Origin: Utricularia gibba
Taxonomy: Eukaryota > Streptophyta > Magnoliopsida > Lamiales > Lentibulariaceae
Assembly (NCBI GenBank): GCA_002189035.1
Contig: NEEC01000117.1
Span: forward strand, 1-29,563
Reading direction: 5' to 3'
DNA: 29,563 nucleotides
Part shown: one piece after another, positions 6,261-29,563 of the stretch
Numbering within the stretch: the stretch's first letter is position 1
Layout of the letters: every line of letters starts with the position of its first letter
The notes under the pieces: model-generated
The model's input: the letters and a program-made list of their open reading frames with translations, nothing else
What the model was told of the DNA's origin: nothing
Database searches by the model: none
Made by a program: the position numbers and the translations under genes

Positions 6261-6479
6261 AATTCTGCTCAGGCCGAATCCCCAATTCACGTGTGAATCC
6301 AGAGCATCACCCAGTCAGCCGAATCGAATGCCGTAAAACAGCATCCACACGTACAAGTTGAAAAAGAGGAAACTTCACCCCCAACCCAACCCTAACTCGC
6401 TGAAGAGAGAAGGGGAGAACTTCCCAGTAGAGCCGAGTTGCGGTACAAAACATTAAGCACTCGCATCCTCATTCATTCA

Positions 6480-8007
6480 TTCCCCATTAAAAAGAGAGAG
6501 AGACATTTTTTTTTAAACCCAAACTCTCCTTTTATTTTGGAATTTTAGTTGATTGAACCACGTCACATTGTCAAAATAGTCACCCAATTCTATATTAATT
6601 TTACAATTTTACATTTTTCTTTAACAAAAAATTTCATACAAGATTTAATATCATCTTTTTTAGATTGATATGAAAATACTATTCATTTTTTATCTATTCA
6701 ACTTATAGAATTAGACGGTACTCGAATCGTCTCGTTTTCAATTCATCGAATCATATTCTAAAGTTTTAGAACTATTTGAAGGTGCACTTTGTTCTAATAC
6801 ACATACAAAAGAGAATCTAACTATACAAGTTATTGACTATGGATCGGGTCGCATTATCAACACCCGATTCCAAAAAAAAGCAAAAATATAATATAATAAT
6901 CAAAACGCGTTTACTCTTTCTCTCTCTTCCAGCGTATCAAACCTTTGATTATTTAAATTATTATTTATATGAGTTTTTCAATTGTGGGTTGGTTACCCAC
7001 GACGACCGGCATCGATCGCTTTCAAACCCTACTTCGCTAATTAAAAAAAAAAACCGGTTGCCGGTCAAGGTGCTCTTCTATTTTGTGTTTTAAAAACCGG
7101 TTCAATGAATTATTCGAATTATTCTTGATTTTGGGTAGAACCATTGTTATAATGGGTTTAATTGGATTGAATTGAATATGAACAATTATAAAAATATACA
7201 AATAATTATTTAAATTTAAGGATTTTTTAATTTTTTATAAAAAAATATTGGATCCGAATCCATAAAATTATGGGATCGGGTTGAATCGAATCCTAGATTC
7301 AATCCATGATTTTAAAATATGGTATGTTGCATTAAAAACATTTCATAATATAAATACACGTATATTTTGCATAAAAATTAAAAAAATAAAAAGCAGTGAG
7401 AAAATAGAAAGTAAGATTTATGGCTTCGTAATAACTCTAAAGTTACGTTTGGTCGATCAATTCGGATTAATTTGAATAAATAAATATAAATTTAAAATTT
7501 TGGTACAAATGTTTTTTAAATTCATGAAAAAACATTAATATGAGATTTTTGGATAAAATTTATCGAAAATAGGTAGGTAAAAATTTTTCCGTTCAAATAA
7601 ACCCATAAATAATCCTTAATTTTCATTACTTTTCATTCAACTAAACTTGGCTTATGATGCTAAATTTTTTATTTTTAAGAAATAAAAATCAATTGTATTT
7701 AATAACAAATTCATTTATGAAATGTTTTTATTGTTTCAGACAAACTAGAATAAAAATTGTTAATATATAGAAAAGGTGTATATTTTCATCCATATAATTT
7801 TATATTAGTAATAATTTCTATGCATGGAAAGAGGACAAGGACCCAACCAGCTGACAATTTTATTTAAAAAAAATAAGTAGAAAATAGTAAATGTGTCAAG
7901 ACACCATAATTGTACAGCCAAGATAACTACCACATGCAAGAATATCATACCAAAAAAGGAAAAAAATTAATAATAATAATAATCATTGAAGGGGTTGTTC
8001 TTCCCTT
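6480..8007. other. AT-rich intergenic spacer
   Basis: About 1.5 kb of strongly AT-rich DNA between the head of the NDR gene and the tail of the PMT gene. It holds a short AAT microsatellite at about 7968-7983 next to the PMT 3' UTR. The short open frames in it show no recognisable domain and no splice continuity. No gene is seen. Confidence 0.6.
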
Positions 8008-10468
8008 CTACTCGGTGTCTCTGAGGCTTTCAGGTGCCACCCACAGTTTCTTCTTAAGGATGAGCACAGCTTCATCGCCTCCATCTTGGCCGGCGGCAGC
8101 TTCTGCGGCTGAATCAGATGTCGCGACTGCTTCCCAGTGCAATGCCGACAGATATTTCTTCACAAAGTCGATGACGCCGGGGCGATCCCTGACGATTACG
8201 AACCCGGATGGTCTGAGGATGCGGTCGATCTCCAGGAGGAGGTCCTCCCGGCTGCAGCCCTTCTTTTCGATGTCTGAGAAGATGGTCCAGGCGTGGAGCA
8301 TGTCGTATGTTCTTGGGTACGTGGAGAAAGCTTCGCACCTGGGAATGGCGGAGGGGGTTTACCATACGGGGTTCCGGCTGTGGAAAAGGGTACACAGGAA
8401 GAAGGACGTACCAGTTATGAATGCTGCCGATCAAGCCCCGGTCGTAAACAATCTTGAGAGTGTTGGGTCCATCTTCGGGGACTACGTTCATCACCCATAC
8501 ATTTTTGTCCTTCAGAGCTGCAGCAAAGGATCCTAGATTTGCCTTCATGTCCATCACGTTCCTCACTGTATCTGGGCCGATTTTCGTGCCGAGGAGATTC
8601 CAGTAACTATCAACCCTCTGCCTCCAAAGTTCCTGGAAAGGAAGAGGACATGAGCAGTTTTTGGTTTAGAGGGAATGCATGTGAAGAATAGAGAATGTCA
8701 TGGGTGGGGTGGGGTGCTGTGTTCAATACCATGTCCTTGTCAAAGATTTCGCCTGAGTAGCCGAGATCAGCGAGACGAGGAGGAGGGGAAGTTAGACGGT
8801 CAGGCCAAGGCGCCAGCCCACTTCCTCCGGTTTTGTGATCATCTGATGATGGGAGAGGAAATATCAGATGAGATATAATTCACAATTCCTATCATATAAT
8901 CTTTAGAGTTGCCATAAAAAGTTTGCAGACCAGGTGCAAGGTTGAAACTCAGAAATGGATGCAAGATAGTTTTGATAGAGAAGATGCTTACGCTCAGAGT
9001 AAGGGGTGATGCATGTCTCCATTGCTACATTCCACACAGCGTCAGGGTCATCTTCAGATCGACAAAGAGGAGGCTGGGTGCCGGGCGCTCTCTCTAAATA
9101 GCAGTCATTAGTCAAAGGCTTTTGCCAAATCACTGTCTGGTTCTTTTTGGCTGCAATCCTCCAACACATACGCTCCACAAGTTCACTCATCTGCTTCCAG
9201 ATCCGAAGATCTTCTTCATCCTGGGCATAAGCTTCAGGTGAAGAGTAGGCAAAATAACCTCCAGGTCTGAGCAGCCTATCCAATTCAAGGAGGAGAATCC
9301 CATCCCTTTGCAACCAATCAATTCTACAGCGGGAACAGTGTGCAAGCTCAAATGATCGGCTTGGATAGGGAAGTCGCTTAGTCCCAAGAACACCAAGGTA
9401 TGCGGGAATTCCCCTTTCCAGAGCAAACTGGATCTGATTTTGGTGCACATCATTCGGAGCTAATGACATGGCAATTATATTTGATGAGAGAAGGTAACCA
9501 CCAAAACTTGCAACCCCACACCCCACATCAAAAACTGTACGTAAATTTCCTTCATTGTTCAAGATATTGTCTGAAAAGTTGAGCATCTACAAATGAAAAA
9601 ATGATCAAATTAGAAAGGAGGGTTCTATAAATATCTGCTAATGGTGTAAAAAGGAACTTACATTTGCGATGTGAGCAATGTACTTGTCTGCTCCATAGTG
9701 AAAGTGGGTGCCACCTCCAGGAAAATTAATCTTATCTCCCTTGACAACCATCCAATTTTGGTCAGATTTCTCCTGTGCAAGGTGCGTGTGCGGGATGTTT
9801 GCTTTCCAAACTTCATCTCTACTTGCTGGCCACTTGATTGGAACCTACAGTGGCACCAAACCATGACAACGCAAAAATGGAAAAAATTCTGAAAAAAAAA
9901 TGCACAATGCAGATATGTAAAACACCTTATATCCAGGTGGCGGAGGAATTAAGCAATTGAACCGCCTCTCTGGCAGTGGGCAGTGCCTTTCATAGTGCTC
10001 CATCAAAGATAAATCCAACTTTAATCGCATCTGAGAATGAATATTTCTGTCCAGACAGGGGATCAACTCCGAATGCCGATCATCACAAACCTTGGTGAAA
10101 AGAAAAATAACTTCTCAACCATATTAAAAACAACAAAGGGATCATTCATAAACAGTTACTACATTCAAATGGGCCTTAAGGACAGGAGAACATACTGGAA
10201 AGCTCTTTGGTGTGATACTGTTATCCAACTCATCTGATTCTTGCTTGTTTGAAGGATCTTCTTGCCTATGGCCAATGTCAGAATCTTCATCCCCACCCAC
10301 GTAAGATGAGCCTAGCCTTCTCAAAGATCGACTTCCATATTCTAAAGCAGACTCCCCAGAGCTACTGGAGCCATAGTAGAAATACAGAAAAACAAGAAAT
10401 ACGGCCACGAGGCCCACTGAGAGAAAGAGGCGCTTCTTTTGCGCACCATCTGACCTTGCCCTCGTCAT
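8008..10468 (-). CDS. PMT8-like: Golgi PMT-type methyltransferase (PMT8/PMT3 group)
   Basis: Plant-specific type II membrane protein of the DUF248/QUASIMODO family, SAM-dependent putative pectin (homogalacturonan) methyltransferases of the Golgi. Seven exons, minus strand: 10468-10196, 10090-9926, 9844-9662, 9586-8992, 8842-8730, 8632-8412, 8338-8008. All junctions are GT-AG and in phase, giving 626 residues. A basic N-terminus is followed by one membrane anchor (about 14-32), a short Ser-rich stem, VCDDRHSELIPCLDRN, the FNCLIPPPPGYK and FPGGGTHFHYGADKYI motifs, the SAM-binding loop DVGCGVASFG (about 227-236), SLAPNDVHQNQIQFALERG, AHCSRCRIDW, the second domain MDMKANLGSFAAALKD, and a tail ending ESLRDTE. 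The motif order and the KKLWVAPESLRDTE ending fit the PMT8/PMT3 subgroup. The substrate is inferred for this subgroup, not shown. The gene looks intact. Confidence 0.95.
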
Positions 10469-11720
10469 TATCTATCTCAGACTTTCGATTTGACAATCAG
10501 AGTTTACACGGTCAAAATTGCAGGAAGTCTTCAATGCGACATAAAGCAACACGCGAAGACTGATCACTGTATGGGCACTTGAGTCAAAAGTAGTCTACAA
10601 CGCTACCTGTTTAAATACGCAACCGATTAGTAAGCTTCCCTTGGTAACAAAAGGTTCACAGTTTCTGCATGAAATACTAAGGCTATAAAGCATACTTTTT
10701 TTGTTATGCATTTCAAAAACTACCAGGTAAAACCAGATCACTTGAGTGTTAAAGCTGTTGTCTTTACTCGTCACAATGATCATAAGCATACGAAAGGGTA
10801 GGATTCCACTAGAAAGCAGAGAGTGATATCTGAACTAGGTACTACAGAAGCCAACATACCTACAAACCAGACCCCCCTACAGTATGGGGTTGGCTACGAG
10901 AATCAATTAAGAATTAACAATAGTGCTCAAGCCTAGTTTTAAGGGTAAAAAAAAAACAGAATCCCATGAAAAAGGAAGAATTTTCTCAGAATGGCCCGTG
11001 GGAAAACAACACAAAAATGCTTCAAATCGTAACGATTTTCCCAAAAAGAGTTGCTCACATACGATCTAGCTTTCCCACTCAATTTTCCCAAAACATGACT
11101 CCGCATTAAATAGATCAAAGAAAACAACAATCTCCACCATTAATTCCCCCTCCAACCCAGATAACAACAACGAACGGGATCCGGGAACAAAATTCGACAC
11201 TTTCAAATCCCAACACTGCAAAACAAGAAACAATCACCAAGAAAGCTTCCACAAACTAACCATCGATCCAGATCTGGAACACACGGTAGACCGCAATATG
11301 CTCTAGAAAATGAAAATGCAGATCGGGAATAAACAAAGGGAGCTCTGCAGGGACCGTGAAAGTGACGGCGAGGTGGGATACTCCCAAAACCGGTAAAATT
11401 TACAGCCAAGTAGATCTGCTTTGCGATCGATCGGCCATTTTTAACTTTCTGGCAAAGGTGAGTTTCTTCAGTCGGGTATGAACCCGCACCACGATTGGAT
11501 CCGTCGGCCGCAATCAATATGATCACCTTTTTTCCAAGAGGAAAGGAGATCGCGACCCGCTTCGGCGTCGGTTCCGGATCCGGGTTCATTGAAAGGATCC
11601 AAATAGTAAAGCCCGACCCTGCTTGATAAGGCCTGGCCCGTATCCCAAATCCAACAAGCCCATTACCGATTTTTTGAAAAAAACAGTAATTCTTTTGAAA
11701 AAAATATTTTTTAAAATTTT
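10469..11720 (-). promoter_or_regulatory. 5' UTR and promoter region of the PMT gene
   Basis: About 1.25 kb upstream of the PMT start. A possible 5' UTR intron acceptor (AACAG, minus strand) lies near 10611. An open frame of 173 codons at 11203-11724 (-) has no recognisable domain, and I treat it as leader or promoter sequence. GGCCC and GCCCAT motifs near 11630-11680 could be site II-like promoter elements. No separate gene is supported. Confidence 0.4.
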
Positions 11721-13848
11721 TCAAAAATTATTTTTTAGTGTAGTGTGGTTTTAGAGACATATTATATAAATTGATTGTATGGAAACGTTTTTATTTAAAA
11801 ATATATTTAATTTTAAATCGATTTTAGATATTGTCAATAAAAAATATAATTTTGAATCCTAATGGACTAATAATAAAAGTATTATAAATCATGGGGTTTC
11901 TAAAGATGAGAAAAGTATTTTAAAATTATGAAAATTTGGCATATGAAAATAATTGCTAAAAACAAGTGTTAATAATTCATATAATGTTAGAGGAAAAAAA
12001 ACAAATATAGCATAATTTGTAAATCTTTATAACATGAATGAAGTTTTTATTTATACTTGATGTCTAAACATAAAAATTTGTTATTCATACAACTTGTTTC
12101 ATGTTTTTTGAATTCAATATAAATTTTGTTGAAATTAAAGATACAATAAATCAGACAAACTTATATAAATTTCAAATATATAAGAAATATAAATTACATT
12201 AAAAAAAAATTAAATATAATTATTATTAGTTATCTACAATTTTTTAATATACTTCATTATATCATTTAACTTCCCAATAATGCTATTATTTGCTCTAATA
12301 CTCACTCTCAAATCTAATTGATCTTTGATTCAATTAAAACTTGTTTTTTTATTTTTTTAATTGTAGGTAATATTTAGATTGTAAGTTAATCTAATTTCGT
12401 TGTCGTAAATTACATCATTTTTTAATCAAAACTCAAATTAGCACAAACTCATCTTTATTATCAAATTAAGACAAATGCTTTAATACATATTGAAATTATG
12501 AATTTAATGGGTTGGATGAACACACATGTAAAGTCCATATAAATAAGAAACTTGGATAACATTTATAAAGATTAGTCTCAACCAAATAATAGTAATTCAA
12601 AAATTTTTATATATTTGATTATATAATATTAATTTCTTGATGTAGTATTATTTGCTCCAATAAACTTATTATAAAGATATATATTGTTGTGGTTAAAAAT
12701 TGGTATTGGAAAGGAATCCGATTTCAGGTAGTGAGTTTGGGTTTTATATTCGTTTTTTGTTGATTTAGGTTTGGTTCTCAACTAGAGTAAAAAGGGATAA
12801 ATGAGGTAAAGAATTTTAACGTGAACAACAAAAAAACCATAAAGCTGGAGGAAAGAAGGATTTCACTAAAGAGAATAAAAGAAAGATTTACAAGGATTGG
12901 TGTGGGATGCCCCATCTCTTCTTAGCTCGTTTTTCTATTTATATGGGAGATCAGGCCGACTGATTTTTGAGGGTGTTAATTACTTTCTATGTTTTGTGGT
13001 TATGTTGCACAAGTGGTACTATAACATACAATCATCGCATGTTCTGAAACTTCTGCAAATCGAACATTTTTCAAATTCTATTGAAATTGTTGACTTTGTC
13101 ATGTTACATCATTTATCAGCACTAATGTCTGTCATATGTTGTAAGAAGTCACCTCCCCCAAGATCAATTTCATCTAGTGAGTATCAATTTGATGTTTAAT
13201 ACCTCCGCCGATTTAAGTATTTTTCTTATAATCGTTCTATATGACATATACAGATTTATGACTATATATAATAATATTATTATTACCTAAAAATAATAAA
13301 ATTATTCAAAAAAGGCTCGAATGCACAATAATCATTCATGCTTTTCTTTTTCATACATACGATTAAAATAATATTAGGGATGATGTTCACTTTTAACATG
13401 AACAAATGTGAGGATCATTCTTCAAAATATCTCATTGAAATGGCGAGGGAAGACAAAAACATGTGATGGCAAGAATATGAAGACAGTCTTGCCCCATCGG
13501 ATGCCTTGAAGATTTATTTATTGTAATAAATAAATAATGTGAATAAAAAATAAAATAAAAATTTCCCCTCGAACAGAGCACAAAAAAAAAAAGAAAAAGC
13601 GAATGTCACACCATAAATAGAAAATTTGACGCTAACGACAAAACTGGGCGGTGTACGTTTGCAAACCATGAATCTTTCCCGAAATACCCTGCCGACGTCA
13701 CTATTCATGATAATTCATTAATAATAATAATAATTTAATTACACAGTAATAGTAGTGTCTGAATCACAAGAGAATAGGGTCAAAGGGGAAAGCGTTTTGA
13801 TTCGATGGCAAACACACAGTGACAACAGTACCTCCCATTCTGCTTCCT
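11721..13848. other. AT-rich intergenic region with one TRIM element
   Basis: About 2.1 kb between the PMT promoter and the ALOG gene. Apart from the TRIM described separately (12127-12662), it holds AT-rich filler, an open frame at 12897-13199 (+) without recognisable homology, and an AAT microsatellite near 13718-13733. No gene is supported. Confidence 0.55.
12127..12662 (-). mobile_element. TRIM-like retroelement, copy C
   Basis: Two direct repeats of about 175 bp (12127-12300 and 12488-12662) flank about 187 bp. Both start like TGTTGAAATTA and share inner blocks, for example TATTATTTGCTCTAATA at the end of the left one against TATTATTTGCTCCAATA in the right. The internal part matches two other elements in this window (near 22231 and 26523) over TTTTTTAATCAAAACTCAAATTA. 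In copy B the base next to the right repeat is a reverse-complemented AGGTATCAGAAC, close to the initiator Met-tRNA primer site TGGTATCAGAGC. Total length of about 536 bp, terminal repeats below 200 bp and no coding capacity fit terminal-repeat retrotransposons in miniature. The copy is old and diverged, so the ends are approximate. Confidence 0.7.
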
Positions 13849-13851
13849 TCA

Positions 13852-14645
<794 letters not shown>

Positions 14646-14669
14646 GGATCACCCCTCTCGATATATGAT

Positions 14670-14678
14670 TAGGGTTTA
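14670..14678 (-). promoter_or_regulatory. Telo-box upstream of the ALOG gene
   Basis: On the minus strand this reads TAAACCCTA, the plant telo-box (interstitial telomere motif AAACCCTA), about 25 bp before the putative ATG. It is frequent in 5' leaders of plant genes. Function here is inferred from the motif alone. Confidence 0.4.
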
Positions 14679-15936
14679 TGATGAGAAGGCAAGAAAAAGA
14701 GAGCAAGAAGAAGTGGGCTGTCTGAATGAGCCGTCGCTTTCGTTCTTTTCAGAGACAGGAGGATCCATGTCCGATATGCGGGCTTCACGAATGAGTTTGG
14801 AGGCTACTGCTTTTATCCCCAACACTCACTCACATTCGTAACAGAGCGTGTGTCTGTGTGTTTTTGCTTTGCTGCAGTAGGGCGGCAGCAAAGCAGACAC
14901 CTCTCTCTCTCCCATGACTAGTCTTGTGCTTATGACTGGATGCCCAACATGATTCACAGGCTTGACTTTGACCCTCTCCTCCCCTCCCATCGAGTTTGGG
15001 CACATTCCAGTCTCCTTCTTCTTCACCTTATCTTATCTCTCTCTTTCATGGGTTCATCAGTCTGGGTTTTTGTGCTTCTCTGCGGCCTTTCTTTTCATCT
15101 GATGAATGAGAAACACCTTGTGACGCTTCAAATACAACCCGCACGCTCTCTTTTCTCTGAAACAGTGTCAAAACAGACAACCAAACCAGGGGAAGAAGAT
15201 CAGTGTTGTTGTTTCCATAGAACCTGATCGGGGGGGGGGGGGGGAAGCTACTAGTTTCAACTGCATTTTCCCTTGATCCAACCAATGTGATGCCCTAATT
15301 TCAGCAAGCCAGGGAGTGGGCTCTATTCTAATGTTTTGTATAAGAGGATGTTATAAGTGGAATACTTAGTCACCATAAAATTGTATAGGATAACTTAAAT
15401 TTGTAATCGGTTGGAACTAGAATGATTCATGATTCTGAATTTATGTACAATTCCGATTTTGAATTGGTTCAATATTTTTGGAATTGGGAAGCTACCATTC
15501 CAGCCCATTTGAAATCAATGTAATTGATGGTTCAAAACTAATGAAACATCGATTTTAATTTTAAAAATTTAAAATTTGGTGACACTCATAATAACTATTA
15601 TGGAAACCTGATAAAAAATGTATTTTATAGATAGTTACAACGGTTCATGTGGATGACTAAGACAAATTATCTTTTTTGTATGATTGTTTTAAATACTCAG
15701 AACAATTGTCCGGTTTAATTCCGGTTTCAGTTTAATTCAATGTTTTCAGTTTCGGTTTTGAATTGAAACCATACAGCTAGACTTCAATTTAAGTTCGATT
15801 CAAGGTTTACAATTCCAAACCAAATTTGATATTTAACTGTGGTTTATGATAATGTCACTTAAATTCTGTATTTAGTTATTTTATTTTAAAATAAAAAATA
15901 TAAAAAAATTGGGATGGGCTCTATCCATTTGATTAC
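14679..15936. other. Spacer between divergent ALOG and ARM genes
   Basis: About 1.25 kb between two divergently transcribed genes. The left part (to about 15230) is moderately GC-rich and probably holds the ALOG leader and promoter, with CT-rich stretches near 14900 and 15035. Then come a run of 15 G (15230-15244) and AT-rich DNA with repeated GGTTTTGAATTGAAACC-like words near 15470-15800, which look like old repeat DNA. No gene is seen. Confidence 0.5.
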
Positions 15937-15963
15937 GGGCCCATTTGCCGCGTGTAGGCCCAT
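15937..15963. promoter_or_regulatory. Site II (TCP-type) elements before the ARM-repeat gene
   Basis: GGGCCCA at 15937-15943 and GGCCCAT at 15957-15963 lie about 250 bp before the start codon, in an otherwise unique stretch. Paired TGGGCC/GGCCCA site II elements are typical of plant nuclear genes for ribosomal, mitochondrial and other housekeeping proteins. This agrees with the mitochondrial guess for the gene. Confidence 0.5.
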
Positions 15964-16204
15964 ACTTGGTATCCATCGTGCGGTCCATTTGGAAAAGTAA
16001 GTGTCGCCGTTGCTCCGGCGTGACGTCTCTGAAATCCAAGGTGCGAAGAGCTTTGCTGGGGTTCTTCGCTCCGAGGTGTTATGTGCTTTGATTTGCTTGG
16101 GATGAGGACGTGTTGGATTCGTTTTGTGTCCATTTCTTGATCCTGGTAGTGCAATTCCGGTGCGTTGCCGGTTTTTCGCTTTTGCTGGAACGTATATACT
16201 AACG

Positions 16205-17856
16205 ATGGTAAGATGAATTTTTGAGCCACTCGCTCCATGGTGTTGGATATGTGAATGTGGAAACTAGATCGCAATTTCCGGCAAGCTAGTGATTTATGCG
16301 CCGGGATGAAGTTTGTATTCGTTTTTATTGTATGTTGAATTTGTATATATTGGCTTCCTTCCTGGCGTTTGATGACTATCTTCTACGATTATCACTTGAG
16401 GGAATTTGCTGATTTTATTTATGTGATAGATTCTTGCAAGACGATGCGGTCGTCTGCCAGCTTGCGACGCGGGAAAAGGGCTGTGCTATAGAATATGTAA
16501 GTGACGCTGAATACTTTAAAAATGAGCATGCTTCATCGTGCAAAATGTGCAGAATTGGATTGCTGCGTAGTTTTTGTGCTTATGTTGTTAAGCAGATTGC
16601 AGTATCATTGCCAAAGAACCTCAGGCTCGGCAACATTTTACATCTTCTGCTATATTTAATCCTTCCGGATTGCCCAGAACTGAGCCTACAAATGTAAGAA
16701 TGCTTAGTTGAAGTTGCTACATATGATTATGACCACCCAACTCTCTATCTGACGGTGCTTGAATATTGCATAGACAACTTGAAGTTGCATTTTGTCTTTT
16801 TTGAGAATTCTTTTGATACAAAGGTGTGTTATGTGTGGGAGTGAATGAGGTATACATCCTTCATTCATTCTCCCAAGTCTGTTACACTGGATTTAAACAG
16901 TGATATGGTGGAATTTCTCCGTGGAGTATTTTTAGTATTTGAACTTGTTTTGTTTGTGTAAATTTTCTCTTCATTTGACTGGTGTAGTTTCTATGCAAAA
17001 CAAATCCGGTAAACGTGCAGTATCGATGCTTGTCATCTTCGACATTTAACCAAGGTAAGATAATACATTTTTTGTTTCTTCATCTTGTCATATATTCTTG
17101 GACAGTAGTTCTTTGCTTAGACTGATTTTCACTTTTTATTTATCTGTAGTGGATCAGGAATCACTGCAGAAGGATGCTGAAAAGAAAATTGGCTGGGTGT
17201 TGAAGACATTATTTTTGGGGACTGCATCATTCGTTGCCTACAATTTATTTCCATACATGGGTTGGTTTTTTTATACATAATCAACTGAAATCCAACATAT
17301 GGAATACAATTTCTTACGCCTTCTTTTTCACCTGTGTAGGTGAGAATGTGATACAGCAGTCTGTGTCACTCTTGAAAACCAAGGACCCTCTCTTCAAAAG
17401 AATGGGAGCTTCTAGAGTAGCTCGTATTGCAATCGACGGTAATGCATATTTTCCAAACTGGCTATTGCCTGTCATCTTGGCATGGATGCTCTGCATTTTA
17501 GTAATCTCCTGTCACACACTTTTCCAGATGAAAGGCGGATGAAGATAGTTGAATTAGGTGGGGTTCAGCACCTTCTCAATATGCTGGCCTTTGCAAAAGA
17601 TGATCGAACCCGACTGGAAGCACTGAAAGCTCTCGTAGCCATCTGCAAATCAGGTTTCCCTTGCTATGCTGATAGCATCCACGCCACTGCTACAGACTAC
17701 TAACTGATGTGTTATGGTGCAGATGCTGCTGCAGCCGCTGTGCAAGAAGCTGGAGGTGCAGAGGTGATCGATTCGACTCCGGATTCGGAGTCAGATTCCG
17801 AGATCGGAGTATGCAAGTCCACTTTGGCAAGCAGATTCCGGGAACTCAGACATTGA
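16205..17856 (+). CDS. Small membrane-anchored ARM-repeat protein, probably mitochondrial
   Basis: Eight exons, plus strand: 16205-16207 (ATG only), 16430-16496, 16596-16693, 16988-17054, 17150-17260, 17340-17438, 17528-17653, 17723-17856. All junctions are GT-AG and phases fit throughout, giving 234 residues. The N-terminus (about 1-60) is Arg/Cys/Ser-rich with few acids, like an organelle transit peptide. A hydrophobic segment follows at about 93-112 (GWVLKTLFLGTASFVAYNLF), then armadillo-type helices (about 117-205) with motifs such as MGASRVARIAI, IVELGGVQHLLNML, RLEALKALVAICKS and AAAAAVQEAGGAEVI. The Ser/Asp-rich tail ends in a basic RFRELRH. It resembles plant ARM-repeat superfamily proteins of unknown role. 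I do not recognise a named gene. The early exons are less certain because they lack a conserved domain, though their phases close perfectly. Confidence 0.82.
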
Positions 17857-18577
17857 CAATAAGGTATGACACCAGACATGTTTTTAGGCATGCTATCAAG
17901 AGACATAACCTGATTTCAGTTGTTTTAGAGAAGCCGTTTTGCTGGGCAGTAAAAGAAGAGAAGTGAAGTAGAGTTGCTGGATAGCATGTCTGAAATGATT
18001 TTAATAAATTTTTTAATTTTAATAATTTCTCTTTTATAATGTTGTTTTATTATAAATCAAAAATAAAATTTAAATAAAGGTAAGAGATTGAGTGGTTTTC
18101 TTTAAATGTGTATATTGTATTTTTTTTAGTTTTTTTTCAATGATAAATGTGTTTTTTTTGTTGTAAAATTAAAATTAATTTATTATAGTATATCAATGAT
18201 ATTTTTACTATTTTATATATTTAAATAAAAATGAATTTTAATCAATTAAGTCTCGATCTAATAAAGGATGCATGTATTTTAAATGAATTTTACATTGATT
18301 AAGAATGTAATAATAAAATAGTTTGTATAAAAATATCTTCTTTAATTTTATATGATTTTTTTTTTCACAAGAGAAGAATGTAACTATATGAAAATTGAGT
18401 GTTTAAAGCAAATAATATTGTACAATACAAGATGAAGATTAAATTTAAATGAAATTATAAAATACATATCTAATAATATAAACATAAATCATAAAGTAAT
18501 ACATGCTAATGACTAATTATGGATCGAGAAGTGTATATGTAAACTCAAGAAGCCCATTGGGTCCGGAAATGGATGTT
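17857..18577. other. ARM gene 3' UTR and AT-rich spacer
   Basis: About 720 bp. The first 130-150 bp are probably 3' UTR of the ARM-repeat gene. The rest is extremely AT-rich with long T and A runs. No open frame of interest and no clear transposon ends were seen. Confidence 0.55.
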
Positions 18578-18594
18578 TGGGCCTACGATGGGCC
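18578..18594. promoter_or_regulatory. Paired site II elements before the ADF gene
   Basis: TGGGCC occurs at 18578-18583 and again at 18589-18594, with AGCCCAT at 18551-18557 just before, about 190-230 bp upstream of the ADF start codon. Clustered site II motifs mark TCP-responsive promoters of broadly expressed plant genes. Confidence 0.5.
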
Positions 18595-18779
18595 TTTGGG
18601 CAGATAGAGAATTGATTGTCGTTTTCTGCTACTAGGCTTTGCTTCATCGAAAGAACTTGATGCTGCTTCGCTGCTTTCATCGGTTTATCTTCTCAGTTTC
18701 TTCTTCTAATTGTCATCTCATCACCGCCATTATTTATCTCATCTGAACTTCCGTTTTCTGCTTGCTGCCTTCGATCGTA

Positions 18780-19790
18780 ATGTCTTTTCGCTGGGGAGTG
18801 GTCGGTTATCGATCCCTTTTTTGTTGATTTTGATATTCTGCAGTTTGTTATTTTGTTTGTTCGTTTGTGCTGTGTTTCCGATCCGTTTGTTTTTATGAAG
18901 GGTTTGATGGCGAGCGCCTGAATATGGGTTCGTAACATCCGTTTGCATATTCGAGTTTATGGTTTTCGCTGCTTATGTGTTCCTTGAATGATCGATTGAT
19001 TAATCTGTTTATTGTTTTGAAGAACTCGTTTATGTGTTTATGCCGCCAATTTTTTGATATGCTATCCATTTCGCTAGTTCACCATGTCCCATGAAGGGCG
19101 ATTGGAGGAAGGGTTTTTGCTGTGTTTGACTGTAGTTGGACTTTGACTCTTGAATTTGGGAATACTGTTAATGGGGAATTAAGGATGCGACGGAAGACAA
19201 TGTTGTGTGTTGTTTTAGATTTTGATTTTGCATTACGAGCTTGGTCAGTGGGGTGAGATTCTGTTGCTTCACCTCTGGTTTGAACTATCTGTTCCAGAGA
19301 AATGCAATATCAGGGATGGGTGTGGCAGATGACACCAAAACAACTTACATGGAATTGCAGAGGAAAAAAGTGTACCGCTATGTGATATTCAAGATTGATG
19401 AGAAGAAAAAGGAGGTTGTGGTTGAAAAAACTGGCAACCCTGCTGAGAACTACGAAGATTTCACTGCATCTCTGCCAGAGAGTGACTGTCGTTATGCGGT
19501 TTATGATTTCGATTTCGTAACTTCTGATAAATGCCAAAAGAGCAAGATCTTCTTCATTGCATGGTCTGTAGCACAATACACAGTAGTCTAAACACATGTT
19601 TTTACAGGGGCACTGATCAATCAAAGTATTCTTTCTCAGGTCACCCTCAGTCTCCCGCATCCGTTCAAAGATGCTTTATGCGACTTCCAAGGAAAGGTTC
19701 AGGAGGGAATTGGAGGGCGTTCACTACGAGATTCAGGCGACCGATCCAACCGAGATGGACATGGACGTGATCAAGGAGCGTGCCAACTGA
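18780..19790 (+). CDS. ADF6: Actin-depolymerising factor, ADF6-type
   Basis: ADF/cofilin severs and depolymerises actin filaments in the cytoplasm. Three exons, plus strand: 18780-18797, 19298-19563, 19640-19790, total 144 residues (Arabidopsis ADF6: 146). The short first exon encodes MSFRWG; exon 2 starts [12 protein letters not shown]. The single ADF-H domain shows [40 protein letters not shown], the actin-binding helix region [20 protein letters not shown], and the [16 protein letters not shown] tail. The Met-Ser-Phe-Arg start and the [13 protein letters not shown] insert are typical of the ADF6 subclass. The regulatory Ser near the N-terminus is represented by Ser in the ISGMGV context. 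The exon 1 donor (GTGGTC) is weak, so the first six residues are the least certain part. The exon 2/3 junction splits the Trp codon of the AWSPS motif. Confidence 0.94.
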
Positions 19791-21580
19791 TCCCATCACC
19801 ATCATCACCTATAAAGAAGTATACTTGTCCATGGTGTCTTTCCCTCATAGTTTTATTAACTTTTAACCTTGAATAAGCTGGCTTAGGGGAAATGCTGATT
19901 GGGAGCTCTCTCACCTGCAACATGCTTCTCCCCCAAGTGATGCGTTTTCCGGTTATGTTATCATGTAATGAAGCTGTATTCGAAACTGTGGTGCTGCTAT
20001 GGTCTTTTGCTTCCTTTTGTACCTTCCCAATTGCTGCAACTGGCATAAGCCACAGGGTTGTTCGTTGCAGACTCAGATTCCAATGACAGGGAAAATGATG
20101 CAGGGTGCTGGTCTATCTGTATATTTGTGACCATGAAACATTGCTTCTTTGTTATCTTCCTCATTCTGCTGACAAGGAAGTTCCGGCCCAACTCCCCGGT
20201 AGCCTATTCGCAGAATCTGTTTTCCGATGACTCTTCCCGGTCCAAGGATCTTTCCGGTCATTCTTGATAGCAACGCAGGGGTTTGATTCTACACCAAAAA
20301 ACAAATACCAAATGTCTGGTCCAAACCAGACAAACAAAAAAGAATGAAAAGCTCTCCTCCACTTAGATGGCAATACTGTGTTTCGGTCTGGTGTTTTTTT
20401 TATTTATTTATGTAGGTGGCTCTTATGAAAAAAACCATTTTAATAAAATAAAAATATAATAGAACGAGAATTGATGTATTATTTAAGTACACAAAAAATG
20501 ATAATTAATTATTATAATAAATGATATATTTATTAAGAATTATTTTTTTCAAATCGATAAATTTCAAAAATATATTTTATAAATCATTTATATTACGAAT
20601 ATACTCTATAAATGTATAAGGTATTTTTAATATTTCTATAAAACAGATTTGTACCAAGATTATATAATTTAAAATAATTTATTTGAAGATGGGTAATAGT
20701 TATAATTTTTATAAAAAACATGAATTTAATTGTTAATTTATATCTGATAATTGATTCTAAAAAATCAATCATAAGCAAATTTATAATTCATTCTCAAAAA
20801 TAATTCTTGAATTCGATAGATGTTTAAAACTTAAAATTTATTATTGAAATAAGATTTAATTGTATTATTGATTTTCCACATGTAGAGGATGCCTCTCCTA
20901 CTATTCTAACATATGATAAATAGACGAGAATTTTTCAATATTTTGATATCTAGTGTTGACACCTCAGTTTTGATTTGTTCGTCTTTTAAAAGAGGGAGGT
21001 GCTCTTGTAAATGAGAGGGATTGAACTAAGGATGAGAACTTAGTGTTTGAATGATGAAAATAGGATGCAATAATCTCACACTACCACACAAACACAATGA
21101 ATTTGCACAAGAAGCTGCATGGTTGCTTTGGGAGGACAAGATGAAAAAACTTTTCAGTTACAAAATACTCTCTTTCTTTTTTTATCATCAATACATGAAA
21201 AAAAAAAAGAAAAAAATACAACATATATAAACTATACTCTCATGAAAATTGTGAAACATAAATCATAATAGATAACATATCGATATAACCATACATGAAA
21301 TTCAAGTAAACGAAAAATATACTCACATTAATAAAGATTATGTACATGATTTGTAATTTATTATGTACTTAACTTGTCGCGGTGAAATGACCAATGGCAA
21401 GTGTGAAGTAGGAAGAACATGTTTATTTGAATAGAATACACTAGAAACAACATCAATCACGGGTAGCATTCTGCAAACCCCAATTCCTAACACCATACAA
21501 CGTTAACGTAAGAACAGGCCCCGACGTTTCGAGCACACTTATTAAGGATGTCTAGAAGTAGAGCAACAAGGAGATGAGCC
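19791..21580. other. ADF 3' UTR and AT-rich spacer up to the ERF gene
   Basis: About 1.8 kb. About 19791-20270 has ordinary base composition and is probably the ADF 3' UTR and flank. The open frames there on both strands have no recognised domain. About 20390-21360 is very AT-rich filler. The last stretch before 21580 should include the 3' UTR of the ERF gene. No gene was found. Confidence 0.5.
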
Positions 21581-22230: not shown

Positions 22231-22739
22231 ATTTGAAATTAAAGATTGTTAAAAAAAATATAAATCACATTCCAAAAAAATAGATCTAATCAATAACGAA
22301 ATATAGAGTAATCAAAAGGGAAGACTTTATTTTTTGGTTTATATATATAATTTCTTAGGAGCCTAGATTACAAATTGAATTTTTTTGATTCAGTGAAGAT
22401 TTGTTTTTTTTTTTGTGTGTAACTATAGGTATTACTTAAATTATAAATTGATTTAAGTTTTGTCGCATAAATTTGATATATCTTACTGTTTTTCTTGTTT
22501 TTTTAATCAAAACTCAGATTAATATGAAGCTTATCTTGGGTGCACTAGTCTTGTTACAAAACAAATGTTGTGATACCTTTTTAAAGTTAATGATTCAATA
22601 AATTAGATATATGTATAAATTATAAATATACAATAAATATGAACTATATTCGAATAGAATAATATCTAATGAATTACTAATGATTATTTCAAACTAATAT
22701 ATCATTTTAATTTTATAATACATGCTTAGTATTAGAATA
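22231..22739 (-). mobile_element. TRIM-like retroelement, copy A
   Basis: Left terminal repeat about 22231-22368, right about 22578-22739. Both carry ATTC-AA-A-AATA--ATCTAAT-AAT-AC-like blocks. A primer-site-like GATACC lies just left of the right repeat at about 22572-22577, reverse orientation. The internal part (near 22385-22560) is nearly identical to copy B at 26523-27130 and recognisably related to copy C at 12127. It is noncoding. Ends are approximate. Confidence 0.65.
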
Positions 22740-23106
22740 CACAATATCACATCAAAAAATAAAAATGATATAATCAAGTATATAAAAAATTATAAATTAT
22801 AAATAAATAATTAAATTTAATTTTTTCTATTGTAATTAACGTTTATTATGTACTTGGATTTCACGTGTTTACTCAACTCACCCCATGTGATTCTCAATTT
22901 CAACACTTAATACTACCCATGAGGAAGACAACAGATCCCTCAGAAATATCCATTCCCATGTACCAATAACAACAGCAACTGATAGTCAGCTAACCAGAGA
23001 GACTGTGCCACAGTGACTCCTCCAGTCCAGTCCTCCGTGTTACTGCTGCATATTCTGTTTTTGTGAAAGCATAATCTTGAATTTTCAACCATTTCGAGCC
23101 ACCCAA

Positions 23107-23535
23107 ATGCAGGATAAAGGAGAAAATAACTCGGACAGAAGTATGATCCAAGGAATATTGAGACCAGAAAGTTTTCTTCCCGGGCTCACGTGCAGGGACT
23201 TGTTGGTCAAAAGTTAGTCATTCCTCTTCAAACCCATATCCTCTCCTTTCTCTTAGGACTGTAATCTTTCAAGAATTCGGAGATCCGATTTCCAGATTCG
23301 ATCCTGGATGGGAGAAGATTCGCCTATTGTTTCGAGAAAAAAACATGGGAAACAGTCGAAGGAAAACCCTCGCTGCATCTGGTGCAAACTACGCAGGCCA
23401 AGGAGCTCGGAGCAACTGTTATTAGCTTCGTCTGTGTATTTCAGTTTCTGGGATCCCGAGGAAGAAGACGTTGTGCCCAAACCCCACGCCGACTTCAAAA
23501 CACGGAAAAATAATCACATGCTGAATTTTGATTGA
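23107..23535 (+). pseudogene. Unrecognised open frame(s) in the duplicated block, left copy
   Basis: An ATG at 23107 begins MQDKGENNSDRSMIQGILRP, shared with the right copy except for one residue (Arg/Thr). In this copy an extra base at a CCCGGG run (near 23180) shifts the frame and ends it at a TAG by about 23217. A second frame at 23308-23535 encodes a segment containing WDPEEEDVVPKPHADFK, also present in the right copy. I do not recognise either protein. It could be a decayed gene, exons of one, or a chance frame in a duplicated noncoding repeat. No function can be given. Confidence 0.35.
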
Positions 23536-23996
23536 ATATATGTGTTTGGTAACAATAATATTTTAATATCTATGTTTATCTTTTTTTTCATATACAAATA
23601 TCGAAATTTTCTAAAATAAACTTGTTAAATATTTAATAGTGCATTCCTCCTGTTACTAGCTTTTCAACCAAGCGTGATGACTAATTGTGCGAATCAACGT
23701 TACTTTCATACACGTAGAAATAAAGCTAACCTGTCTAATCTAAAGATGAGATTTGTTTTAATTGGTTTTCTTTTATATCGATTTGTTTGAATATATAAAA
23801 AAAGAGTAAGATTATATATATATATATTGATAAAAAAAATACATACATATTCTCATGTGGATTTAAAACCATATACACAATTATTCTCATTTTGATTTGA
23901 AAGACCAAAAACTTGACATGTGATTATATGTACAAAAGTGTAATTTTATGATAAAAAAAATGAAAGGTATAATAGTTTCAAAGTATATTATAAAAA

Positions 23997-24356
23997 GAGA
24001 AAAATCAATTTTCTTAATCATAATGTTTGTTTCATTTTTATTTTACAATTGAATATTTTGACTTGTATAAAATACAGTCAAAACTTTTATCAATAAACTC
24101 ATTTTATGACATTACATTCAAAAACTCGTTGTAACTAACTAAACATTGTATCATTCACTTTCATTTCTTTTTTGATTAAATAATTATATATTTTTTTCAA
24201 ATAAATCATAAAAAATTTTAAATTATATTTTCTGAATTATATTACAAGTGTGAAAATTTATTGATAAACTTTTTAACTGAATTTTACATAAGTTAAAATA
24301 TTCAACTGTAAAATGAAAATGAACCAAATATTATGATTTAAAAAACGATTTATCTC
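23997..24356. mobile_element. Mutator-like MITE, 360 bp, with 9-bp target duplication
   Basis: The element begins GAGAAAAATC and ends GATTTATCTC, so the outer ends are inverted (GAGAAAAATC against GAGATAAATC). The inverted similarity continues inward for at least 100 bp, with blocks such as AATCATAAT, ATTTTACA, TTGAATATTTT and ATCAATAAA in both arms. It can therefore fold into one long hairpin. It is flanked by identical TTATAAAAA at 23988-23996 and 24357-24365. The other copy of the host block has a single TTATAAAAA at 29509-29517 and no element, that is, an empty site. A 9-bp duplication with long inverted repeats starting with G fits Mutator-like elements. There is no coding capacity. Confidence 0.9.
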
Positions 24357-24418
24357 TTATAAAAATACATATGTTTTGATAATTATGTATGTTTGGTAAA
24401 AGTATTATTATACATTTA

Positions 24419-24780
24419 ATTTGTAAAAAAAAATTATATAAATTATATAATTATGTTTTTTAAAATTTTATTGCTATCTGAGTTTTCCTAATTATCCAAG
24501 AGTTGATTTTTTTTGATTTTATTTATATAAATATACGTCATGTGATTAAAATTAAAATAATATTTTATATATTTTCAATAATTCAATTATTCAGATAAAA
24601 TATTTATATGAGTTAAATTCATATCCGGATCTGGCTTGTTTCCATATTAAGTAAGCATGATATGGAAATTCTGATACCGTATCTCCTATATTTAGATTTT
24701 TAATAAATAATCTAAAATCCTGCAAAATTTCTCCTTGATGGAAAGAACACGATGGATACAACGAAGGTAAAACCATGGAG
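24419..24780. other. AT-rich flank downstream of the RING-H2 gene
   Basis: About 360 bp. It is AT-rich on the left, and the right side is the 3' flank of the minus-strand RING gene. No gene and no clear repeat were found. Confidence 0.5.
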
Positions 24781-25464
24781 TCAGGCGTCGGTGGGGAGCT
24801 CCAGCCGGCAACAGGGGCAGCTATGGCCGACGCTGAGCCACTTTGTGATGCATTCTTTGTGGAAGAAATGTCGGCACGGCATCTCGAAGCCCTCAGCGTC
24901 ATCAGCATACTCCTCCAGGCAGATGGGGCAGGAATCCATGATCGAAGACGCCGCCGTCGTGCTCTTCAGCGCCGCCGCAATGGCCGACTCCTCCGCCCTC
25001 ACCGTCACCACGGCATCGTCGTCCATGGACTGCAGCACGGTCTCCGTCTCGGAATCCACGTTGAGATCAACGCCGATGCGGTAGTTGAGCCAGAAGCGGT
25101 TACAGTTGGGGTGCAAGTTCCGTATTGCGCCGGAGCATGAGTAGCAGATATGACAAATTAGGAATTCCTGGACGTACAGGGGTACATGGGCATCCCACGC
25201 CTCCCATTCTTCTATGCGGCGCCTGATGGCGGGTCCGATGGCCGCGGTTGTTGGGTCGCTGCGCTTCACGATGATGGATAACTCCAGCGGCGCCAGACGG
25301 ACGGAACTGAGGATGGTGCCCATGCTCCGCACGGAGGATCGGATGATGATGCCGAGGCTGACCTCCACGTCATCAGAGCTCTCTCCGGTACGGCGGAAGG
25401 CGAAGCTTTCTTGCGCGGAGAAGGAGACCGAGTCTTCGCCGTTGGAGAAGAGGATCTCGTTCAT
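24781..25464 (-). CDS. RING-H2 E3 ubiquitin ligase, intronless
   Basis: 227 residues, single exon. The C-terminal RING-H2 finger has the full C3H2C3 ligand set: Cys179, Cys182, Cys197, His199, His202, Cys205, Cys216, Cys219. The conserved Trp209 lies four residues after the sixth ligand, as needed for E2 contact. The core reads CPICLEEY, then CRHFFHKECITKW, then CPCC. No membrane segment or signal peptide is seen, so it is probably soluble. The N-terminal 170 residues match no domain I recognise and include a Cys-rich patch LICHICYSC (about 103-111). The family attaches ubiquitin to target proteins; the target is unknown. The GC content (clearly higher than the surroundings) and the lack of introns are typical of plant RING-H2 genes. 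It sits between the two copies of the duplication. Confidence 0.92.
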   Translation of the reverse strand: MNEILFSNGEDSVSFSAQESFAFRRTGESSDDVEVSLGIIIRSSVRSMGTILSSVRLAPLELSIIVKRSDPTTAAIGPAIRRRIEEWEAWDAHVPLYVQEFLICHICYSCSGAIRNLHPNCNRFWLNYRIGVDLNVDSETETVLQSMDDDAVVTVRAEESAIAAALKSTTAASSIMDSCPICLEEYADDAEGFEMPCRHFFHKECITKWLSVGHSCPCCRLELPTDA

Positions 25465-25530
25465 GCTTCTTATCTTCTTCTGTTCACAGTATGCATAATG
25501 CGGGAGACTTGAGCGCTTTTATAACAACAA
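25465..25530 (-). promoter_or_regulatory. Core promoter of the RING-H2 gene
   Basis: On the minus strand, TTATAAAAG at 25524-25516 is a good TATA box about 52 bp upstream of the ATG at 25464, giving a short leader. Confidence 0.6.
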
Positions 25531-26550: not shown

Positions 26551-27130
26551 TATGTAAAAATATGAATCACATTCTAAAAAATTAGTTTAATCAATAACAA
26601 ATATAGAATAATAGAAAGGTAAGCCGTTATTTTTTTTGGTTATATATATATAATTTCTTAGTAAGATAGATTATATCATTAGATGGAATTAATTACTAAT
26701 AATTTATAATATATATATATTTTTTATTTATTTATATTATTTTAATTTCTTGTTTGATATAATATTCAAACTTGAGTCAAATTGGATTTTTTTGATTCAG
26801 TGAATATTTTTTTTTTTTATGAGTGTAACTAGTTATGACTTAAATTATAAATTGATTTAAGTTTTGTTGCATAAATTTGATATATCTCATTGTTTTTCTT
26901 GTTTTTTTAATCAAAACTCAAATTAATATGAAGCTTATCTTGGATGCACTAGTCCAATACAAAACAAATGTTCTGATACCTTGTTGAAGTTAATGATACG
27001 ATAAATTAGATATATGTAAAAATCACAAACAAACAATAAATGTGAAATATATTGGAAAAGAATAAAATCCAACCAATTACTGATGATTCATCCAAACTAA
27101 CATATCGTTTTAATTTTGTAATACATGCTA
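26523..27130 (-). mobile_element. TRIM-like retroelement, copy B (interrupted by a LINE)
   Basis: Near-identical to copy A through the internal part (for example TTAATCAAAACTCAAATTAA near 26907). On the minus strand the primer-site-like AGGTATCAGAAC (plus 26970-26981) directly follows a terminal repeat ending in CA (plus strand repeat start TGTTGAAGTTAATGATACG at 26982). It matches 10 of 12 bases of the usual initiator Met-tRNA site. The right terminal repeat is cut off at about 27130, where LINE sequence begins. The left repeat is longer than in copy A because of extra AT-rich DNA. No coding capacity. Confidence 0.65.
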
Positions 27131-28409
27131 CCAATTACTAATGAAGTTCTTCTGGAACGGATCTAACATCACGACCCAGAAGATCACCTGGGTGGCATGG
27201 GGACAAATCACTAATTCCTATGAGATAGGGGGTCTGAATTACTTTGCAAGTGTCGAATATTTCACTGCTAGTCAAGTGGTGGCGGCGGCTTATGGAGACG
27301 GGTGGTACTATCCATCTATGTCGAGGAGGTGGACTCAATTGCAAATGGGTTCTAGAGTACGTACTACTACATGGGGGAGGATAGTATCTATTTCGGCAAC
27401 TATAAAAAAAGATTGGCCAACCATTGACATTAATAGGTGGTTCAAACACACATGGGGGGACGGATCACAGGTCGTGTGTGGGAAGACTCTGGGATCTAGA
27501 GGGAGAGAGATCGTTTTCCAGAACTCTATAGGATAGTTTTGCATAGACAAGCTACACTAAGTGAAGCTTGAGAATGGGAGGCAGGGAATATTATGGAACA
27601 TTGATATCATAAGAGTTCCCTCCAACAGTCATGGAGGAAAGACTAGAATTTTTAGCAATGATTAGAGACTCAAAAAACGAGCGAGAAAACAACTCTTTGT
27701 TGCTGGACGATCACTGATCAGGAGCAAGATTTGTCCACTTTAGTGAGGAGTGCACAACCCACAATATCAAGGAGCTTCTTAGACCTCCAAGAGCACACAC
27801 GTCTCCCTCCATCCCACCCTTTTTTGGTAAGGAGTGGAACATGTATCCTATTAAAGTGAGGATTTTTGTGTGGCTATTAGCTCAAGAACAGTTGCCAACG
27901 AAACTGAACTTGATGGCAAGAGGGGTAGCATTGAGTGATGTTATGTGTAGTAAATGTCACAGGACAGAGGAGACTGGTCTACACATCGAGTTCCACTGCG
28001 GCGAAGCTCAAACATTATGGACTGATATATTCCACTGGCTGCAGTGTGATGTTCAAAATTGGGATGCTTCTAGATGGCATTCAAATATCCCAGCTCCATA
28101 TCACTCTACAGGTTTAAGGAGCGTCTGGAAGGTGGTGCTCGCTTCTACTCTATGGCTACAATAGAAGGCTCGGAATTATAATGTATTTAGTGAACATCAA
28201 GATGCGCATCTTCGATTGCAGGGGGTAAATTTGAGAGATGTACAAGTAATGGCATTATCATGGCTACAAGGGAGAACACGAAGGAAGCACATCCCAGCTT
28301 TCTTATGGCTTTGTAACCCCTTATTAGTGGGAGGCAGCGCCTAAAATATGTAATTTGTTCTCTCGTTTAAAAAAAAAAAATCAATTTAACAGTAAAAAAA
28401 AAAAAAAAA
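27131..28409 (+). mobile_element. 5'-truncated LINE (non-LTR) retrotransposon, decayed
   Basis: It encodes the C-terminal part of LINE ORF2 in broken frames. At 27141-27535 a reverse-transcriptase C-terminal region begins MKFFWNGSNITTQKITWVAW and contains GGLNYFAS. At 27841-28163 a zf-RVT domain has PIKVRIFVWLLAQEQLPTKL, CSKCHRTEETGLHIEFHC and LWTDIFHWLQ (Cys-X2-Cys ... His-X3-His-Cys pattern). A stop TAG at about 28162 is followed in the same frame by KARNYNVFSEH, the usual IWKARN motif of plant LINEs, then a tail with RRKHIPAFLWLCN ending at about 28344. Two A runs (about 28369-28380 and 28394-28409) end the element. The 5' part, including endonuclease and most of the RT, is absent. CTACC next to both ends may be a remnant target duplication. 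It is inactive. Confidence 0.85.
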
Positions 28410-28420
28410 CTACCTAGTAC

Positions 28421-29563
28421 TACTACCCGTGAGGAAGACAACAGATCCCTCAGAAACATCCATTCCGATGAACCCATAACAACAGCAACTGATAGTCGGA
28501 TAACCTGAGAGACAGTGCCAAAGTGACTCCTCCAGTCTAGTCCTTAGTGTTACTGCTGCTTATTCTGTTTTTGTGAAAGTGTAATCTTGAATTTTCAACC
28601 ATTTCGAGCCACCCAAATGCAGGATAAAGGAGAAAACAACTCGGACACAAGTATGATCCAAGGAATATTGAGACCAGAAAGTTTTCTTCAGGGCTCACGT
28701 GCAGGAACTTGTTGGTCAAAAGTTAGTCATTCCTCTTCAAAACCATCTCCTCTCCTTTCTCTTAGGACTGTTATCTTTCAAGAATTCTGAGATCCGATTT
28801 CCAGATTCGATCCTGGATGGGAGAAGATTCGCCTATTGTTTTGAGAAAAAACAATGGGAAACAGTCGAAGGAAAACCCTCGCTGCATCGGATTAAACTAC
28901 GCTGGCCAAGGAGCTTGGAGCAACTGTTATTAGCTTCGTCTGTGTATTTCAGTTTCTGGGATCCCGAGGAAGAAGACGTTGTGCCCAAACCCCACGCCGA
29001 CTTCAAAACATGGAAAAATAATCACATGCTGAATTTTTGATTGAATATATGTGTTTGGCAACAAGAATATTTTAATATCTTATGGTTTATCTCCTTTTTT
29101 TCATATACCAAATATTGAGAATTTCTAAAAAAACATGTTAAATATTTTAATAGTGCATTCCTTTGTATTACTAGCTTTTCAACCAAGCGTGATGACCAAT
29201 TATGCGAATCAACGATTCCTTTCATACACGTAGAAATAAAGCTAACCTGTCTAATCTAAAGATGAGATTTGTTTTAATTGGTTTTATTTTATATCGATTT
29301 GTTTGAATATATATAAAAAGGAGTAAGATTATATTTATATATATATATTGATAAGAAAATACATACACATTCTCATGTGGATTTAAAACCATATACACAC
29401 AATTATTCTCATTTAGATTTGAAAGACCAAAAACTTGACATGTGATTATATGTACAAAAGTGTAATTTTATGATAAAAAAATGAAAGGTATAATAGTTTC
29501 AAAGTGTATTATAAAAAATAAATATGTTTTGATAATTATGTATGTTCGGTAAAAGTATTATCA
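28421..29563. repeat. Duplicated block, right copy (runs to the window end)
   Basis: Direct copy of 22911-24418 without the MITE. Its end near 29563 still aligns with about 24418, so the duplication may continue beyond the window. Differences are scattered substitutions and small indels in A/T runs. Confidence 0.95.
28617..29037 (+). pseudogene. Unrecognised open frame(s) in the duplicated block, right copy
   Basis: The ATG at 28617 begins MQDKGENNSDTSMIQGILRP and stays open through a Ser-rich part (HSSSKPSPLLSLRTVIFQEF) to a TGA at 28788-28790. The left copy has GGA at the position of that TGA, and a further open stretch with KIRLLF and RRKTLAASGANYAGQG follows there. Another frame containing WDPEEEDVVPKPHADFK is open at 28699-29037. 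So each copy is broken at a different place in the first frame. I do not recognise the protein, and no function can be assigned. Confidence 0.35.

Follow-up and report, generated by a model that had tools for sequence, protein, structure and literature searches.

A 360-bp hairpin MITE, very probably Mutator-like, in one of two tandem block copies in Utricularia gibba

Background

Mutator-like elements (MULEs) typically have terminal inverted repeats (TIRs) of 100-500 bp (PMC3310237), and several groups of short, non-autonomous relatives have been described. MuTAnT of Medicago truncatula is a group of short MULE-derived foldback elements (one example measures 292 bp and has arms of 144 bp) with 9-nucleotide target duplications where these are visible and with a coding partner in the same genome (PMC4486113). 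The Mutator/Foldback family Tm1 of root-knot nematodes also makes 9-bp duplications and has a MITE-like class, on average 431 bp long, that outnumbers its single coding element (PMC3169594). The non-autonomous plant MULEs with multiple long TIRs carry duplicated TIRs and amplify with target duplications of 9-11 bp (PMC3310237). MULE MITEs are thus already known and the individual element described here is of an ordinary kind.

Results

The element and its ends

The element lies in a stretch of 29,563 nucleotides of Utricularia gibba, analysed as a whole and called the window below, which belongs to contig C187 of the 100.09 Mb genome (516 contigs). It has the following parts:

23997..24356, no strand: very probable non-autonomous Mutator-like MITE, hairpin, 360 bp; assigned from ends, duplications, relatives, fold (z -6.4) and the absence of an ORF of 90 aa or more
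23997..24099, plus strand: left terminal inverted arm, starting GAGAAAAATC; from the arm alignment, with homology to the L end of the long MULE reaching to about 24231
24255..24356, minus strand: right terminal inverted arm, starting GAGATAAATC on the minus strand; shortened in comparison with relatives of 480-500 bp
23988..23996, no strand: 9-bp target site duplication TTATAAAAA, left copy
24357..24365, no strand: 9-bp target site duplication TTATAAAAA, right copy

An initial annotation, made from the letters alone, had placed a 360-bp element between identical 9-mers here, and both ends and both copies of TTATAAAAA are indeed exact to the base. Identical 9-mers at a spacing of 369 bases occur at just one of 29,185 window positions, which is this pair. 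The annotation had further proposed a full hairpin with arms of at least 100 bp each, and this holds in part: the well-paired part of each arm is about 100 bp long, but the middle of the element pairs poorly and the right arm of this copy looks shortened when judged against the relatives of 480-500 bp. Folding and arm alignment, both suggested at the time, bear out the inverted structure: the ungapped pairing of 24009-24097 with 24257-24345 (89 bp) is 85% complementary, the terminal-arm alignment scores 67 (maximum 30.5 in 1000 first-order Markov sequences), and the predicted DNA fold has -54.8 kcal/mol (100 shuffles: mean -31.8, standard deviation 3.6; z -6.4). Aligned to its own reverse complement, the element is about 70% identical over the full 360 bp. 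The ORF listing of the window has no ORF of 90 aa or more in the element's interior.

A filled and an empty site in a tandem duplication

The insertion lies in one of two tandem copies of a host block, which are 95.2% identical over 1127 aligned bases:

22908..24420, plus strand: host block copy 1, aligned part, with the insertion
28418..29563, plus strand: host block copy 2, aligned part, without the insertion; runs off the window end
29509..29517, no strand: empty site, a single unduplicated TTATAAAAA

The flanks of the empty site match copy 1 on both sides, and the window stops 46 bp further on. Contig C4 contains the same block copy 2, with TTATAAAAA once at C4:3393937, and prolongs the right flank by about 180 bp with indels, including one gap of about 75 bp; beyond this follows a second RING-H2 ORF (C4:3394285-3394803, minus strand). 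C4 has no element at the empty site: the nearest is one weak match of 47 bp about 1.5 kb away. The empty site claimed by the annotation is therefore present on both contigs.

The filled and empty copies are most simply read as the outcome of one insertion, into copy 1 and later than the duplication, as had been proposed. An insertion before the duplication, followed by exact loss from copy 2, whether by precise excision or by repair that used an empty allele, would equally leave a single TTATAAAAA and continuous flanks; it takes two events where one would do, the second of them base-exact, and we consider it highly improbable. The filled/empty pattern is found on C187 and on C4, yet, because these contigs overlap, the two are not independent evidence on this point.

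For the same reason, C4:3388404-3388763 was rejected as a second copy of the element. It is 100% identical, the only such match among the 40 scored of 53 candidates, and its surroundings also match the window (98.9% over 4.5 kb; further out 99.5% over 1.5 kb and 99.9% over 1.1 kb; 94.6% and 100% for the nearest 200 bp on the left and right, respectively), so that it represents the same locus. C4 and the window are colinear over the compared stretches. Between two of these (window 6367-21102 versus C4:3365400-3385500), C4 is longer by about 5.4 kb, so that the two overlapping contigs differ in structure here. A separate difference distinguishes the block copies: about 1.3 kb in copy 2 (27130-28417) correspond to about 180 bp in copy 1 (22727-22907). 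With a zf-RVT ORF at 27718-28164 and runs of A near 28370-28410, the longer stretch resembles a truncated LINE-type remnant.

Neighbouring genes

ORFs of the window have domains of ADF/cofilin, RING-H2, AP2 (below the Pfam cut-off), protein kinase and Methyltransf_29 type. The element follows a RING-H2 ORF (24781-25518, minus strand) at a distance of about 425 bp from its stop; of this tandem RING-H2 pair, one member has the MITE downstream and its paralogue is without the insertion.

This position, together with the strong hairpin, would suit an element that was kept as a source of small RNAs or of a miRNA acting on the RING-H2 gene, and a review names Mutator MITEs among the sources of miRNAs (PMC10004981). 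However, the arms are only about 85% paired, transposition accounts for the structure of the family, 24-nt siRNAs are reported to be reduced in Utricularia gibba (PMC8333044) and an Rfam search over 23500-24900 returned no match at E up to 1: we regard such a role as very unlikely. We found no evidence for a host function of the element.

Dispersed relatives and their target duplications

Used as query against the genome, the element has at least 114 matches, with arms and strands counted separately (53 candidates, of which 40 were scored). Apart from the overlapping contig, the closest scored relative matches part of the element at 87% identity; many near-identical copies, as expected from a recent burst, were thus absent among these 40. 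The relatives comprise hairpins in two size ranges, 301-387 bp and 456-506 bp, and forms of 761-837 bp in which arms of about 225 bp enclose an internal stretch. The 360-bp element is accordingly short, non-coding, bounded by inverted ends and one of many dispersed copies, as is characteristic of MITEs.

Both ends could be placed in 42 rows, and 22 of these have a perfect 9-bp duplication and 34 have one with at most one mismatch; the remaining eight have 2-4 mismatches. Random flank positions gave 17/2503 perfect duplications and 103/2503 with at most one mismatch. For some rows, ends were first chosen within ±10 bases with the duplication as part of the score and then rescanned within ±6; this gave the observed rows greater latitude than the control, for which the range was ±6 only. 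In a second control at ±5 (n=5514), 0.56% had a perfect duplication and 5.3% one with at most one mismatch. When rows with common flanks are merged (the window with C4, and six rows on C244/C246), 36 insertions remain, 19 with perfect duplications, 28 with at most one mismatch and eight with 2-4 mismatches. The further copies looked for on the advice of the annotation thus exist, with related termini and with 9-bp duplications far above the control. The duplications are AT-rich and some are near-homopolymers, for example nine Ts, and for this reason single cases are weak. A search with fixed termini gave three convincing rows besides the window locus, because the terminal bases vary; ends were then placed by homology.

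The six rows counted as one insertion (L017, L019, L020, L043, L044 and L045) are a hairpin insertion that was multiplied together with its flanks: they are 91-100% identical, occur in both orientations and are spread over about 400 kb of C244 and on the small contig C246. Eight rows with only one end in the stretch or placed are outside the 42 (L014, L023, L034, L039, L041, L059, L060 and L061); among these, L023 (C451) and L041 (C30) have an identical match pattern and are probably duplicates of each other.

A long partner with a MULE transposase domain

A profile search of the genome with PF10551 returned at least 150 MULE matches (239 candidates, of which 150 were scored). A MULE with the same ends had been named as something to look for, and C451:5280844-5286320 has ends homologous to those of the element: it is 5,477 bp long, is flanked by a perfect 9-bp duplication (TATTTGGTA) and has, on stop-to-stop pieces, PF10551 MULE (E 6.6e-14) and SWIM (1.1e-7) domains above the Pfam cut-off, with DBD_Tnp_Mut (7.4e-5) below it. 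Its left end is 83% identical to the right arm of the window copy over 100 bp, and 73% identical to the left 235 bp of that copy. Three shorter relatives form a size series: 3,837 bp (C451:2658486-2662322; about 92% identical to the long element, duplication with two mismatches), 2,286 bp (C507:489166-491451; perfect duplication) and 739 bp (C451:4993125-4993863; perfect 9-bp duplication). The last is an internal-deletion form of the long element, with 505 bp retained at the left end and 219 bp at the right; an ordinary internal-deletion form thus also exists in the family. In the stretch that includes it (C451:4992700-4993863; L026 1-1101, L049 1-63), a further, inverted fragment of the same MULE lies nearby. 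The homologous ends of the long partner and of the size series indicate that the termini of the MITE belong to a real MULE.

The transposase frame of the long partner is in pieces and the closest transposase frames found are broken too, for which introns are a possible cause; an intact coding partner with these ends, as would be expected for present activity, was not among them, which concerns activity rather than membership of the family. Long open frames do occur in MULEs that are more distant, for example C505:1070076-1070954 with a frame of 749 aa at 33% identity, and therefore another transposase may have served. The MULE domain beside C317:1275678-1276179 was rejected as a partner: the hairpin there (506 bp) has its own duplication (8/9) and lies beside the domain.

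With a probability of about 93%, the 360-bp element is a non-autonomous Mutator-like foldback MITE. This class, already proposed in the initial annotation, is supported by relatives with 9-bp duplications and by a MULE-encoding relative with homologous ends. The window copy itself has the features of TIR-type MULEs, namely a perfect target duplication within the range of 9-11 bp and inverted repeats of about 100 bp, where about 100 bp or more is typical.

One end possibly used twice

The two ends of the long elements, L and R, align with each other over about 115-120 bp only. Past the terminal 120 bp or so, 21 of 35 miniature elements have L-type sequence in both arms and nine have it in one arm; R-type sequence above the shuffle maximum was found in none of the 35 (1400 shuffled comparisons; 95th percentile 35.6 bits, maximum 46.4). 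At a laxer E of 1e-3, R-end matches on one strand or the other appear in 15/35 elements, all at 35.6 bits or less and inside the shuffle range. From the set of 35, L009, L043 and L045 were excluded, as were the four elements that are long or internally deleted; L017, L020 and L044, which have flanks in common with L019, are still included. For the two arms of the window copy, the L extension scores 68.0 and 31.0 bits against the shuffle maximum of 46.4, so that it is clear for the left arm alone. A search of the genome with the R end as query is in line with the result for the 35 elements: of 34 matches, five extend beyond position 121. Four of the five are termini of the long and internally deleted elements described above; the other, C2:4106630-4106828, has about 1.3 kb of long-element sequence next to it.

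A tree was built from 58 arms of 29 elements, after removal of 13 of the 42 rows as duplicates or for doubtful ends (L009, L043, L044, L045, L020, L017, L028, L029, L035, L057, L062, L036 and L015). The nearest neighbour of an arm is its own partner in only 1/58 cases. A subfamily of 13 elements has one arm of each in one clade (support 100/99, from a rough bootstrap), and its arms group with the matching arms of other elements, indicating that the two-L form pre-dates the spread of this subfamily. The arms of L019 and of L030 stand side by side with weak support, which speaks against a single origin for these two. The bootstrap is not settled, with 30/55 inner branches drawn open, and the tree places the window arms without support; the dating of the two-L form covers the 13-element subfamily but not the older hairpins, which include the window copy.

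Among the elements examined, the L/L form is commoner than L/R. We give about even odds to the reading that the MITEs of this family are mostly palindromes of a single end rather than internal deletions of their MULE, with L copied in inverted orientation and R dropped, and that the transposase pairs two L ends no less well than an L and an R end. Two-L arms could also be ancestral, if the TIRs of the founder MULE were symmetrical over 230 bp and only the R end has diverged since, in the long elements sampled: the L and R arms can still be aligned over their terminal part, and such a length is within the 100-500 bp given as typical of MULEs (PMC3310237). This is doubtful, since R-type sequence past position 121 recurs in the five R matches, including the diverged C507 and C2:4106630, and since the inverted repeats that span the transposase at two of four coding outgroup loci, a small sample, are 97 and 107 bp long and not above 230 bp. 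The remaining two loci have no spanning inverted repeat. From the two short repeats, the long L-type arms look derived, as the single-end reading has it. The duplication scan at outgroup locus C2:1987331 gave four mismatches at best, and a perfect 9-bp duplication at C409:1157480 was discarded as evidence, as it came from about 9,000 end pairs scanned without a control.

Discussion

The miniature lineages would go back to an event in which a long element gained an inverted copy of its L end, with L now facing L, and these palindromes would then have been mobilised as units. At the window locus, a MULE transposase made elsewhere in the genome may have bound the terminal 100 bp or so of both arms and inserted the element at a cut with a 9-base stagger in block copy 1, when the block was already duplicated; the window copy would afterwards have lost about 140 bp from its right arm. 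The family looks old and is probably dormant, given that identity to the closest relative scored at a different locus is 87%, over a part of the element's length, and that the closest transposase frames found are broken.

Filled and empty twin sites within one window give the ends and the relative date of the insertion without recourse to other data, and the tandem gene pair, one member with a downstream MITE and one lacking it, is a natural test of the effect of a MITE on its neighbour. The apparent use of one end twice points to a way, open to test, in which an autonomous MULE may give rise to a hairpin MITE; if true, an end asymmetry of the MULE transposase would drive the birth of MITEs. 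A preference for one transposon end has been reported for mariner (PMC4505599). Among the literature matches listed, mostly outside subscription journals, there is no description of one-end palindromes for MULEs and no title on a Utricularia MULE-MITE.

By description rather than by sequence, MuTAnT resembles the window family in the foldback architecture of short elements, in its 9-nucleotide duplications, in its coding partner and in insertions near genes, and differs in its targets: all but 14 of 218 MuTAnT copies are in TA microsatellites (PMC4486113), whereas the targets of the window family are AT-rich but varied. Tm1, also compared by description and not by sequence, is similar in its 9-bp duplications, in its numerous MITE-like class, in the use of a paralogous empty site as evidence and in showing no sign of recent transposition; unlike the window family, it has an animal host, a Phantom-type transposase, TIRs composed of composite motifs and usually different 7-bp motifs at the two ends (PMC3169594). 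The plant MULEs with multiple TIRs share the non-autonomous state, the duplication of TIRs and the size of the target duplication, but add a TIR beside the normal pair (PMC3310237), whereas here one end has seemingly replaced the other, in inverted orientation.
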